Assembly: GCA_903885595.1 (NCBI GenBank) | Contig: CAISJJ010000243.1 | Span: 1-37,430, forward strand | Length of the DNA: 37,430 nucleotides | Reading direction: 5' to 3' | Source: an uncultured Bacteroidales bacterium | GTDB taxonomy: Bacteria; Bacteroidota; Bacteroidia; Bacteroidales; FEN-979 | In this document: one piece after another, positions 28,031 to 33,512 of the stretch | How positions within the stretch are numbered: position 1 is the stretch's first letter | Layout of the letters: each line of letters begins with the position of its first letter | Program-made: the position numbers and the translations under genes | Notes under the pieces: model-generated | The model's input: the letters and a program-made list of their open reading frames with translations, nothing else | The model's database searches: none | Told to the model about the DNA's origin: nothing

Positions 28031-28128
28031 CCTCACCCCCTGACCCCCTCTCCACCCGGAGAGAGGGAGACAGTTTATTTTCCGGATACCTGACCCCCCT
28101 CTTGCGGGGGAGAGGGGTTAGCGGTGAG
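28031..28128. repeat. Empty inverted pair of the GC-rich palindromic repeat
   Basis: A forward copy (28031-28070, opening CCTCACCCCCTGACCCCC, hairpin CTCTCC-ACCC-GGAGAG) faces a reverse copy (about 28087-28128, ending GGTTAGCGGTGAG). The outer CTCACC (28032-28037) and GGTGAG (28123-28128) are complementary. It begins seven bases after the kinase stop. It has the geometry of the DUF559-bearing unit at 31857-32369 without the gene. Confidence 0.75.
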
Positions 28129-30562: not shown

Positions 30563-31822
30563 ATGAACAATGAATTAACCACTGGGAAGCACGATGCATA
30601 TGCAGTGCTGAAGGTACGCGATTTCAGGTTGTTCCTGACATTCCGGTTTTTCACAACCATTGCCTTTCAGATGCAGGGTCTTATTGTGGGCTGGCAGATG
30701 TATGAACTAACCAAGGATCCTCTTGCGCTTGGACTGATCGGACTCGCAGAGGCACTGCCGAATATTGCGACAGCGCTCTTTGCCGGACATGCTGCTGATC
30801 GTTACAACAGAAAACGGATTATTGTTTGGTTTACATTGTTATTCCTTGTTGGAACGACACTGCTTTTCCTTTTTTCCATCAAATCCATTGGAATCATTGC
30901 TGTGCTTGGGGTTTTTCCGATCTACCTTGTTGTAATGATTTCTGGAGTTTCACGGGCATTTCTGTATCCTTCGATTATCGCGATGATGTCGCAACTGATA
31001 CCACGACATCTCTATACCAATGCCTCTACATGGAACAGTACCATGTGGCATGTGGCGGCCATTACCGGTCCGGCACTGGGGGGAATGATCTATGGATTTT
31101 TCGGGGTGAGAATTGCCTATTTGGGAGTTCTTTTCTTTCTGCTTATTGCATTGACTTTGCTGGGCATTGTAAAGAACCGTCCGGTGCCACAACCGGAAAC
31201 CGGCGAAACCTTATTCCAGCGCCTTTCATCGGGACTGAAATTTGTCTTTAATAACCAGGTATTGCTTGGCGCCATGTCGCTCGATATGTTTGCCGTGCTT
31301 TTCGGAGGGGCCGTTGCCATGCTTCCGATCTTCGCAGCTGAAGTGCTTTTGGTTGGCCCACAAGGACTTGGATTTTTGCGTGCAGCTCCTATGGTTGGCG
31401 CTGTCGCTATGTCGCTGGTTATGGCGCACCGGCCTCCGATGGTCCATGCCGGAAGATACCTGATGATTGGTGTCGCCGGCTTTGGACTGAGCATCATCTG
31501 CTTTGCCCTGTCACGAAATTTCTATTTGTCGATGGGATTGCTGATGCTGAGCGGGATGTTCGACAACATCAGCGTAATCATCCGTTCAACGGTGATGCAA
31601 TTGCTCACTCCCGACGAAATGCGCGGCCGCGTAGCCTCTGTTAACGCTATTTTCATCGGTTCATCAAATGAAATAGGCTCCTTTGAATCGGGCGTGGCGG
31701 CAAAACTCATGGGATTGATTCCCTCTGTGATCTTCGGGGGTATCATGACCTTAGGAGTTGTGGGTTTCACTTCGAAATTTGCGCCCAGGCTGAGAAAGCT
31801 AAATCTTAGGGCGATTTGTTGA
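30563..31822 (+). CDS. MFS transporter (MFS_3/enterobactin-exporter-like)
   Basis: This 419-residue protein has about 12 hydrophobic helices and a motif-A-like loop after helix 2 (HAADRYNRKRIIVWF). A second signature near helix 11, PDEMRGRVASVNAIFIGSSN, is typical of MFS_3 drug/siderophore exporters. It would export a small molecule by proton antiport; the substrate is unknown. A purine-rich stretch AAAGGGGG lies just before ATG 30563. A degenerate copy of the GC-rich repeat lies five bases after the stop, and the DUF559 unit begins 35 bases after it. Confidence 0.87.
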   Translation: MNNELTTGKHDAYAVLKVRDFRLFLTFRFFTTIAFQMQGLIVGWQMYELTKDPLALGLIGLAEALPNIATALFAGHAADRYNRKRIIVWFTLLFLVGTTLLFLFSIKSIGIIAVLGVFPIYLVVMISGVSRAFLYPSIIAMMSQLIPRHLYTNASTWNSTMWHVAAITGPALGGMIYGFFGVRIAYLGVLFFLLIALTLLGIVKNRPVPQPETGETLFQRLSSGLKFVFNNQVLLGAMSLDMFAVLFGGAVAMLPIFAAEVLLVGPQGLGFLRAAPMVGAVAMSLVMAHRPPMVHAGRYLMIGVAGFGLSIICFALSRNFYLSMGLLMLSGMFDNISVIIRSTVMQLLTPDEMRGRVASVNAIFIGSSNEIGSFESGVAAKLMGLIPSVIFGGIMTLGVVGFTSKFAPRLRKLNLRAIC

Positions 31823-31826
31823 GAAC

Positions 31827-31847
31827 ACCTCGCCCCCCCCCGGCCCC
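31827..31847 (+). repeat. Degenerate half copy of the GC-rich repeat after the MFS stop
   Basis: The run CACCTCGCCCCCCCCCGGCC resembles the CCTCACCCCC opening of the repeat, but it lacks the hairpin half. It lies five bases after the MFS stop codon. Confidence 0.5.
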
Positions 31848-31856
31848 ATTTTGTAT

Positions 31857-31902
31857 GAAATACCTCACCCCCCTGCCCCCTCTCCGCCCGGAGAGGGGGA
31901 GG
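31857..31902 (+). repeat. Left inverted-repeat arm (GC-rich palindrome)
   Basis: It opens GAAATACCTCACCCCCC and contains a 10-bp stem with a GCCC loop. The DUF559 stop codon (31865-31867) lies inside the arm, so the arm encodes the protein's C-terminal PSPGGEGAGG. Confidence 0.8.
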
Positions 31903-32293
31903 ATGATCTTAGAATGGTTTGTTGAATTTGCCGAAGAACAGATTCAATATTATTTAGGATATCTTCATTTGAAAAACGGATGACCTGAATCCCTAATTCT
32001 TCAAGTTCAGATGTCCGGTTTTCATCATGTTCTGATTGAATACCATTGTTGTGAATCCCACCATCTACTTCAATTACCAGTTTGAAATCATGGCAATAAA
32101 AATCGGCAATGAACCATCTGACCGGGTGTTGTCTCCTGAACTTCAGGTTTGCAAAACCATGGTTTCGCAAAGCATTCCAAAGTACTTTCTCAGCCTCTGT
32201 TTGTGTTTTTCGGAATTCCTTCGCCAATTCGATCAATTCCTTCGAAGCTCCATAATAAAAATCATTTCGATAACTGGTCTTAATATATGGCAT
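31865..32293 (-). CDS. DUF559 endonuclease-domain protein
   Basis: This 142-residue protein has the DUF559/Vsr-like PD-(D/E)xK nuclease core: an N-terminal helix region (about 17-47; LAKEFRKTQTEAEKVLWNAL), then FRRQHPVRWFIADFYCHD with D64, VIEVDGGIH with E75 and D77, and EELGIQVIRFSNEDIL. Family members resemble the very short patch repair endonuclease fold; none has a firmly known role. The last 13 residues (SSSPSPGGEGAGG) are encoded by the left inverted repeat. The start at 32293 is 29 bases inside the right repeat. The gene is therefore exactly contained in the candidate mobile unit, and a role in moving or maintaining the repeat is a fair hypothesis. Confidence 0.85.
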   Translation of the reverse strand: MPYIKTSYRNDFYYGASKELIELAKEFRKTQTEAEKVLWNALRNHGFANLKFRRQHPVRWFIADFYCHDFKLVIEVDGGIHNNGIQSEHDENRTSELEELGIQVIRFSNEDILNNIESVLRQIQQTILRSSSPSPGGEGAGG

Positions 32294-32322
32294 ATTTAAG
32301 TCGTTTAAAAAGAATCAGGTGA

Positions 32323-32369
32323 TTTCCCCCTCTCCGTGCGGAGAGGGGGTCAGGGGGGTGAGGTATTTC
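32323..32369 (-). repeat. Right inverted-repeat arm (GC-rich palindrome)
   Basis: Reverse complement of the left arm with one extra A and three or so substitutions. It has a 10-bp stem with a GCAC loop on the minus strand. Its outer end touches the TAG stop (32370-32372) of the alcohol dehydrogenase. Confidence 0.8.
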
Positions 32370-33512
32370 CTACAAATACAACTCAATCAAAGCTTTATAA
32401 TCCTCCTCCTTCATCTTCACATTTCCCCCATTCACTTTGCTATGAACCATTGATTCGAAAAGTGGCTGGCGATGGTCGCCCGGAATATTCATATCCGATA
32501 AGCGGATCGGGCATCCGAGCGATTTAAAGAAGGCTTCGATACGGTCGATAGATTCATCGGCCGTAAGTGGTTCGCCGAATAATCCGGAGCCCAGTTGTGC
32601 AATGCGATTACCAATCTGACCCTTGAAGTGACGCATCCAGGCCGGAAAAACAATGGTGAGGGATGCGCCATGAGGTACATCATAAAGTAAAGAAAGACAA
32701 TGACCGGTGCTGTGCACGCCCCAGTCGCCCGTGGAACGGCCATACATGGTCATCCCGTTCAGCGCCATGGTTGCGGCAAACATGATCCTTTCACGGTACT
32801 CGTAATTGTGCAGATCATCAAGTAACTTTGGTCCGTAATCCATCGCTTCCTTAATAATAGAGAGGACAAACCGGTCGGTGAGGGAGGTTTCCCCGATGCC
32901 AAACCAGGCTTCAAAACAGTGCGCGATCAGGTCTGCAATGCCATATGCAGTGTGATTTTTTGGAACAGTCAGTGTCAATGCAGGATCAAGGAATGAATGT
33001 TTGGGAAATGTCAGGGGTCCTCCAAATGCTGCTTTTAGTCCCTCGGCGTGGTTGGAAACCACGGCAAACGGGTTCATCTCCGAGCCGGTTGCTGCAAGTG
33101 TCGGAATTGCAATGAAAGGGATAGCCTTTACAGGTTTTGCTTTCCCTGTAAAGAAATCCCATCCCCCGTGATCAACCGGGATGGTTACCGAAATGATTTT
33201 TACCGAATCGATGACACTTCCACCGCCAACGGCAAGTAAAACGTCAACCTTCTGTTGCCTTCCTATTTCTGCAGCTGCATCTACATCCCCGATTACCGGA
33301 TTGGGTTTTATTCCCCCATATTCACAAACTTCAAAACCCTGGGTTTTCAGGTCTGCCATAATCCGGTCATAGAGGCCGCTTTTTTTAACAGAGCCTTTTC
33401 CGTAAATGAGCATTACACGGTTGCCGTATTCTTTCAGTGTAGTCACCAAAGACGTCAGAATGTTTTTCCCGAAATGAAGAGTTGTGGGGTTATATGCAAT
33501 GAAGTTTTCCAT
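32370..33512 (-). CDS. Iron-containing alcohol dehydrogenase (YqhD/BdhA-like)
   Basis: This 380-residue protein fits group III metal-dependent alcohol dehydrogenases. The opening FIAYNPTTLHFGKN and the nucleotide-binding AVGGGSVIDSVK precede a metal-site region: ADLIAHCFEAWF and VHSTGHCLSLLYDVPHGASL with the His ligands. It interconverts aldehydes and alcohols with NAD(P)H in the cytoplasm, probably in fermentation or aldehyde detoxification. The opening and the length are closest to the NADPH-dependent YqhD/butanol dehydrogenase branch. Its stop codon abuts the candidate mobile unit, so the end (ELYL) could have been affected by insertion. A -7 box is seen at 33597-33604. Confidence 0.9.
   Translation of the reverse strand: MENFIAYNPTTLHFGKNILTSLVTTLKEYGNRVMLIYGKGSVKKSGLYDRIMADLKTQGFEVCEYGGIKPNPVIGDVDAAAEIGRQQKVDVLLAVGGGSVIDSVKIISVTIPVDHGGWDFFTGKAKPVKAIPFIAIPTLAATGSEMNPFAVVSNHAEGLKAAFGGPLTFPKHSFLDPALTLTVPKNHTAYGIADLIAHCFEAWFGIGETSLTDRFVLSIIKEAMDYGPKLLDDLHNYEYRERIMFAATMALNGMTMYGRSTGDWGVHSTGHCLSLLYDVPHGASLTIVFPAWMRHFKGQIGNRIAQLGSGLFGEPLTADESIDRIEAFFKSLGCPIRLSDMNIPGDHRQPLFESMVHSKVNGGNVKMKEEDYKALIELYL

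Follow-up and report, generated by a model that had tools for sequence, protein, structure and literature searches.

We found that a DUF559 nuclease gene and the two inverted, REP-like palindromes that enclose it probably form one mobile element, a reading to which we assign a probability of roughly 0.68; we infer its mobility from comparison with related loci. The unit lies in a stretch of 37,430 nucleotides (the window) from an uncultured Bacteroidales bacterium. Its left arm, a CCTCA-tagged, C-rich palindrome (31862..31900, + strand), faces an inverted copy on the right (32323..32364, − strand). When 31857-31902 was aligned with the reverse complement of 32323-32369, 43 of 46 aligned positions were identical, 3 were mismatched, and one gap was needed, so the inverted arms described in an earlier note are real. 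The highest-scoring local match reached outward to ~31850 (49 of 51 aligned positions, 1 gap) and took in a left extension, TTTGTATGAAAT (31850..31861, +), and a right one (32365..32376, −) that overlaps the stop codon of the neighboring dehydrogenase gene at 32370-32372. The ungapped inverted-arm score was 25 at the unit, and 340 further positions of the window scored no higher than 14. When folded as single-stranded DNA, both arms (hairpins at 31876-31899 and 32326-32349) formed the 10-bp stem that had been claimed for each, closed by a 4-nt loop (−11.6 and −11.8 kcal/mol; z of −2.9 and −4.0).

The ORF between the arms (31865..32293, − strand, 142 aa) matched DUF559 (PF04480) at 120 bits, over a cut-off of 20.6, in agreement with the DUF559 nuclease gene read there before; the nuclease is of the Vsr/EDxHD type. 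The stop codon of the gene, TGA at 31865-31867, is contained in the CCTCA tag with which the left arm is marked, and this arm also encodes the nuclease’s last ~10 residues (SPSPGGEGAGG); the earlier statement that gene end and repeat coincide was thus confirmed from the sequence. The insertion site is bounded on the left by an MFS transporter-like gene (30563..31822, +) and on the right by an alcohol dehydrogenase-like gene (32370..33512, −), the stop codon of which lies 5 bp from the right arm. The gap that separates the unit from the transporter gene contains, at 31830-31847, a degenerate C-rich stretch resembling an incomplete additional repeat copy. Two inverted copies of this kind of repeat also occur as a REPIN/MITE-like pair with no gene ~4 kb from the unit (28031..28128; read by eye, one palindrome also computed). 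No direct repeat or target duplication was found flanking the window unit, and it contains no transposase, its ORF matching PF04480 and no Y1_Tnp. We rejected the arms as a terminator, there being no terminator-like site at them, and as a known RNA, with no Rfam match across 31700-32500 at gathering thresholds; the same scan of the window locus gave no match to group I or II intron RNA around the gene.

We read 16 dehydrogenase loci from the genus and family of the window genome. A DUF559 unit stood directly behind the dehydrogenase stop codon in four of them: the window, G014, where it is oriented as in the window, G013, where the gene is inverted, and G004, where the gene is damaged and at a contig end. 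Dehydrogenase and transporter adjoined without such a repeat in four others (G008, G019, G020, and G022), and in G008 a single base separates the two stop codons (read by eye). The G021 junction holds a gene-less inverted repeat pair. In G016 and G002, the transporter is ~670 and ~930 bp off, and the intervening DNA is different and lacks such a repeat; the remaining five loci had no transporter in the stretch available, G017 among them having the repeat without the gene. By this comparison, the insertion site is polymorphic within the genus and family, and the empty MFS-alcohol dehydrogenase junctions that the earlier note proposed to look for were found in four relatives.

The combination of gene and repeat as one unit recurs across DUF559 loci. 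A pattern-free test for inverted or direct repeats within 500 bp found them at 73 of 116 distinct loci (inverted 56, direct 35) but at only 6 of 350 shifted positions (inverted 0, direct 6), all of these positions lying in the named-genome loci and most in coding DNA; by the same test, repeats were absent at 43 of the 116. This set omits L120, L121, L122, L123, L137, L157, and L183, which are the same places as relatives’ loci, and the test omits the Vsr-type loci L087-L089 and those with fewer than 250 bases on either side. With the seven duplicate loci kept, the counts were 77/120 and 8/368. Control gene families gave 0/21 for the dehydrogenase, 7/27 for a permease (inverted 1, direct 6), and 8/26 for Y1_Tnp (inverted 5, direct 5), from 30 loci each of which 21, 27, and 26 were used. 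Inverted arms scoring at least 18 within 300 bp were present at 36 of the 72 DUF559 matches examined (79 in total, 61 genomes), and in 13 of the 35 loci of relatives that could be compared, the downstream arm contained the nuclease stop codon. The earlier note had predicted DUF559 genes in such repeats elsewhere, as these counts bear out. The pattern it had set against its own reading, the same gene and arms at this locus in every relative and no such repeats at other DUF559 genes, is therefore not what we found, given the unit-free orthologous junctions and the many DUF559 genes in such repeats.

Named-genome loci with inverted arms include those of Planktothrix, Lysobacter, an Omnitrophota, and a Desulfuromonadales genome. 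In samples from two phyla, without control positions of their own, flanking repeats were present at 17/25 cyanobacterial and 15/29 pseudomonadotal loci (54 of 60 loci used after the length filter). Sixteen phylum loci were listed as free-standing, and 8 of the 10 tested had repeats; two of the 16, L343 and L364, in fact have long frames, with the DUF559 domain at the end of the frame in L364. Only 5 of 13 in-frame loci showed flanking repeats, so their arms are weak or decayed. Among viral DUF559 loci (59 found, 21 tested), one had inverted and three had direct repeats. The short Vsr-type matches L087-L089, from the same genome set, had no such arms.

Arm type follows the nuclease. Of 28 units, 25 had left and right arms of the same stem type, against an average of 8.1 and a maximum of 17 over 10,000 permutations, and on a nuclease tree of 60 of 69 rows after length filtering, 39 of them labelled, arm type changed 10 times vs. 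22.6 times when shuffled, with none of 200 shuffles as low. One genome may hold units of two arm types, as the window’s own does (L001 and L002).

The repeat is also found without the gene. A strict pattern (ACCTCACCCC, gap, CCCTCTCC, loop, GGAGAGGG) had 16 matches in the window’s 6.0-Mb genome, where the reversed control pattern had none; 15 of the 16 copies are on contigs without a DUF559 match. Our sample of that genome, 198,798 bases, includes contigs chosen for known repeats and therefore gives no unbiased repeat density. The pattern was present in 29 of 61 genomes, the richest relative having 34 copies, and DUF559 in 36 of 61 (79 matches). Both were found in 26 genomes, DUF559 only in 10, the repeat only in 3, and neither in 22 (Fisher p = 5e-6, relatedness ignored); among the first 37 genomes, of the genus and family, p was 0.003, with relatedness again ignored. 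No co-occurrence of the repeat with Y1_Tnp, the RAYT-type transposases, was seen in the 61 genomes (p = 1.0), and on this independence we rejected a RAYT as the mover of the repeat. More broadly, gene and repeats might be passengers, the palindromes being moved in trans by a RAYT or IS transposase and DUF559 captured between copies. Y1_Tnp genes are indeed common (48/61 genomes), and 5 of 26 Y1 loci have inverted flanks. However, the repeat tracks DUF559 and not Y1_Tnp, the only transposase compared, and it would be surprising if members of one gene family had been captured again and again, in three phyla, between arms of matching type; we consider passenger status unlikely.

The earlier claim that target duplication is missing held for the window copy but not for six of seven units in Algoriphagus. 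There, a DUF559 gene lies behind a permease gene in 7 of 30 loci, and in six of these seven the permease 3′ end is found again beyond the unit; the gene end is also duplicated in 5 of 23 loci without DUF559 (by tblastn; 3 of the 23 with little sequence available). The duplications are ~30-110 bp long, comprising the last ~110 nt in L410 and parts in L414, L418, L435, L437, and L439, and the pattern suggests that insertion makes a long duplication, by which the gene end would be restored. The duplications in unfilled loci lie nearer, beside other repeats where read; because 5 of the 23 have them, duplication is not specific to the DUF559 nuclease. Behind the permease in L412, L417, and L419, gene-less repeats of a different kind (CCCGAT...ATCGGG) stand beside 32-36 nt duplications of the 3′ end. 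The view that direct repeats are a target duplication made at every insertion was rejected: they are absent from the window unit, many of them are paired repeats of the same family, the duplication at L164 may reflect paralogous permease genes, and gene-end duplications also occur in the Algoriphagus loci without DUF559 just described.

Related units also occur in frame inside protein genes. Among the 150 Bacteroidota matches listed, at least 37 lay in open frames of at least 600 aa, and frames of at least 280 aa were present at 15 of 29 fetched Bacteroidota DUF559 loci. We read 46 long frames, which included MetH (9), LeuRS (9, at two sites with 6 and 3), HsdR (6, at more than one site), RecG (4), and restriction-type proteins (4), besides others; 31 of the 46 were chosen for length, hence the counts are not a rate. 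In four cyanobacterial loci (L444, L446, L448, and L463; genomes of ~2 Mb), DUF559 lies in frame within PriA, each time at the same site. Eight DUF559 matches apiece were present in two further small genomes from the cyanobacterial sample. One carrier each passed the curated cut-off for LeuRS (TIGR00396), MetH (TIGR02082), RecG (TIGR00643), PriA (TIGR00595), and HsdR (TIGR00348), the other hosts being named by similarity or context. The inserts are often edged by translated, SPSPxGEG-like palindromes. In the HsdR of one relative (L066, genome G009), short palindrome-like peptides (FPSSGGVVEDRGGK) are also in frame at further points beside the DUF559 insert. In three genomes of the Pseudomonadota sample (L471, L472, and L474), DUF559 is joined in frame to the beginning of a protein that we take to be CbiG-like.

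At one LeuRS point, 2 of 30 loci read have DUF559 and 28 do not, L297 among the latter having a longer loop; the in-frame units carry palindromes, and the relatives read have none at the site. No intein model matched the LeuRS, MetH, and HsdR carriers (full lists) or was among the best 25 families for RecG and PriA. A separate case is L276 of Planktothrix rubescens, where DUF559 lies within an apparent intein of an N6/N4 DNA methylase and the C-terminal splicing motif TIGR01443 is over its cut-off. When host genes and sites were placed on a poorly resolved tree of the short DUF559 domains, the nine labels (free-standing, other in-frame, and one for each of seven host genes or sites) required 16 changes vs. 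42.7 when shuffled, with 0 of 200 shuffles as low; MetH accounted for two changes, RecG for one, and the first LeuRS site for four. Recurrence at the same site could be inheritance with losses, which counts against the mobile-element reading, and the host-site pattern suits either homing to fixed sites or such inheritance, between which the tree cannot decide.

DUF559 genes are under purifying selection, with NG86 dN/dS of 0.07-0.29 for 10 of 11 pairs and YN00 values of 0.09-0.43 where run, some dS values exceeding 1. Such constraint would also be expected of a resident Vsr/DUF559 nuclease, active in repair or against foreign DNA to the host’s benefit, with the hairpins serving as transcription or mRNA-stability signals and the unit immobile. 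Further points on that side are the PADLOC matches, weak and led by a methyl-directed restriction enzyme at 7e-7, and a Caulobacter DUF559 Vsr-like protein tied to cytosine methylation and DNA damage (PMC12907096). A resident immobile gene is nevertheless at odds with the unit-free junctions in close relatives, with the in-frame copies in LeuRS, MetH, RecG, and PriA, with arms that lack a terminator-like site or Rfam match, with hairpins of one nuclease-specific type on both flanks, and with the Vsr-type genes of the same genome set that have no such arms; we regard it as improbable.

A profile of 14 DUF559 proteins matched PDB 3hrl, a solved endonuclease-like structure, at 5.8e-31 and, over a partial alignment only, the “mobile intron protein” 3r3p_A at E = 1.7e-5; 3r3p is presumably the EDxHD homing endonuclease I-Bth0305I. 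D64, E75, D77, H81, and D90 are invariant in the 14 proteins, with which 3r3p aligns only partly. The Algoriphagus nuclease L126, which reads E-V-Y-G where the 14 others read E-x-D-G and thus lacks D77, may be inactive. One DUF559 gene is placed in the EDxHD family by PMC9403480. The homing-type homology to 3r3p, and units that lie between direct copies of paired repeats as if inserted into a resident repeat (L127, L144, L188, and L194, among others), would fit palindromes that pre-exist as homing sites of a free-standing endonuclease and spread on their own, but arm type covaries with nuclease lineage and the in-frame LeuRS units have palindromes where the relatives read have none, and we give this explanation little credence.

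For the preferred reading, a mobile unit of one nuclease gene and two palindromes, we propose that the Vsr/EDxHD-type nuclease would nick or cut at its cognate palindrome or target site, or close to it, and that the break would be repaired by copying in either the element or a repeat without the gene. Since Vsr is a nickase, two offset nicks on opposite strands by a Vsr-like enzyme could produce the long duplications that restore a host gene’s 3′ end. The palindromes are stop-poor, which would allow a unit landing in an ORF to be read through. Taken further, these units might constitute a separate class in which a Vsr/EDxHD-type nickase, and not a transposase, moves both itself and gene-less palindromes, makes long gene-restoring target duplications by offset nicks, and enters essential genes in frame without splicing; we put this forward tentatively, at somewhat less than even odds. 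The earlier note spoke of a minimal selfish element: a recurrent unit and a polymorphic site support that description in part, and its selfish status is something we infer from sequence comparison. Its analogy with RAYT and REP sequences holds for architecture, in that arm type covaries with the nuclease and gene-less copies occur singly and in pairs, but does not cover the homing-like features or the target duplications in Algoriphagus. The homology to 3r3p and the recurrent in-frame sites in LeuRS, MetH, RecG, PriA, and HsdR are as suggestive of homing as of the spread of a REP sequence.

Pfam lists DUF559 as a domain of unknown function. Of the genomes that we searched, it was present in 222 of 395 from Bacteroidota, 136 of 194 from Cyanobacteria, and 108 of 299 from Pseudomonadota. 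If many of its genes drive a palindrome-bounded mobile element, a very common family would gain a function, and palindromic repeats that do not follow RAYTs would be assigned an enzyme. Selfish genes would then be kept in frame in LeuRS, MetH, RecG, and PriA without splicing, and parasites would account for some of the “extra domains” seen in essential enzymes. Judged across many bacterial genomes, the gene and its hairpins probably spread together as a tiny selfish element able to settle next to important genes, or even inside them, and leave them intact. In the open literature, we found neither DUF559 together with an inverted repeat, of which a prior description is possible in subscription papers outside the scope of the search, nor, within the same scope, non-splicing in-frame insertion of a homing endonuclease. 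A segment with a transposase and DUF559 is reported as a recombination hotspot in Legionella (PMC12308824), the text of a REP survey contains neither “nuclease” nor “RAYT” (PMC12306157), and the question whether “untagged” palindromes go with specific proteins is left open in PMC3733652.

Known systems share parts of this design. The inverted ends, gene-less copies, and duplicated target at some sites recall MITEs and IS elements, but the DUF559 unit has no transposase, and its duplications of ~30-110 bp copy a gene end. Palindromic inserts kept in frame in protein genes are also seen in the Rickettsia palindromic elements, which are not known to carry a nuclease gene. With EDxHD homing endonucleases such as I-Bth0305I, the units share a homologous catalytic domain (3r3p) and sporadic occurrence at recurrent sites in conserved genes, the window unit itself being intergenic. 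They differ from these enzymes in being bounded by palindromes of several types, in having dispersed gene-less derivatives, and in showing no intein model match in the five DUF559 host proteins tested. The likeness to REP/REPIN-RAYT systems lies in short tagged palindromes, a gene flanked by inverted copies, and copies elsewhere that lack the gene, some single and some paired; in RAYTs, as in DUF559 units, the type of repeat goes with the enzyme lineage. The enzyme differs, being a DUF559 nuclease of the PD-(D/E)xK/EDxHD type where a RAYT (TnpA-REP) is a Y1 HUH transposase, and DUF559 units are also found in frame inside conserved genes. The tag of the window type is CCTCA, whereas the tag beside REP hairpins is GTAG or CGTC (PMC3733652). 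Copy number is lower as well, at 16 in the window’s genome and at most 34 in the 61 relatives by the strict pattern, against more than 100 per genome for REPs (PMC2817692). We describe the unit as a homing-type nuclease gene with REP-like ends.
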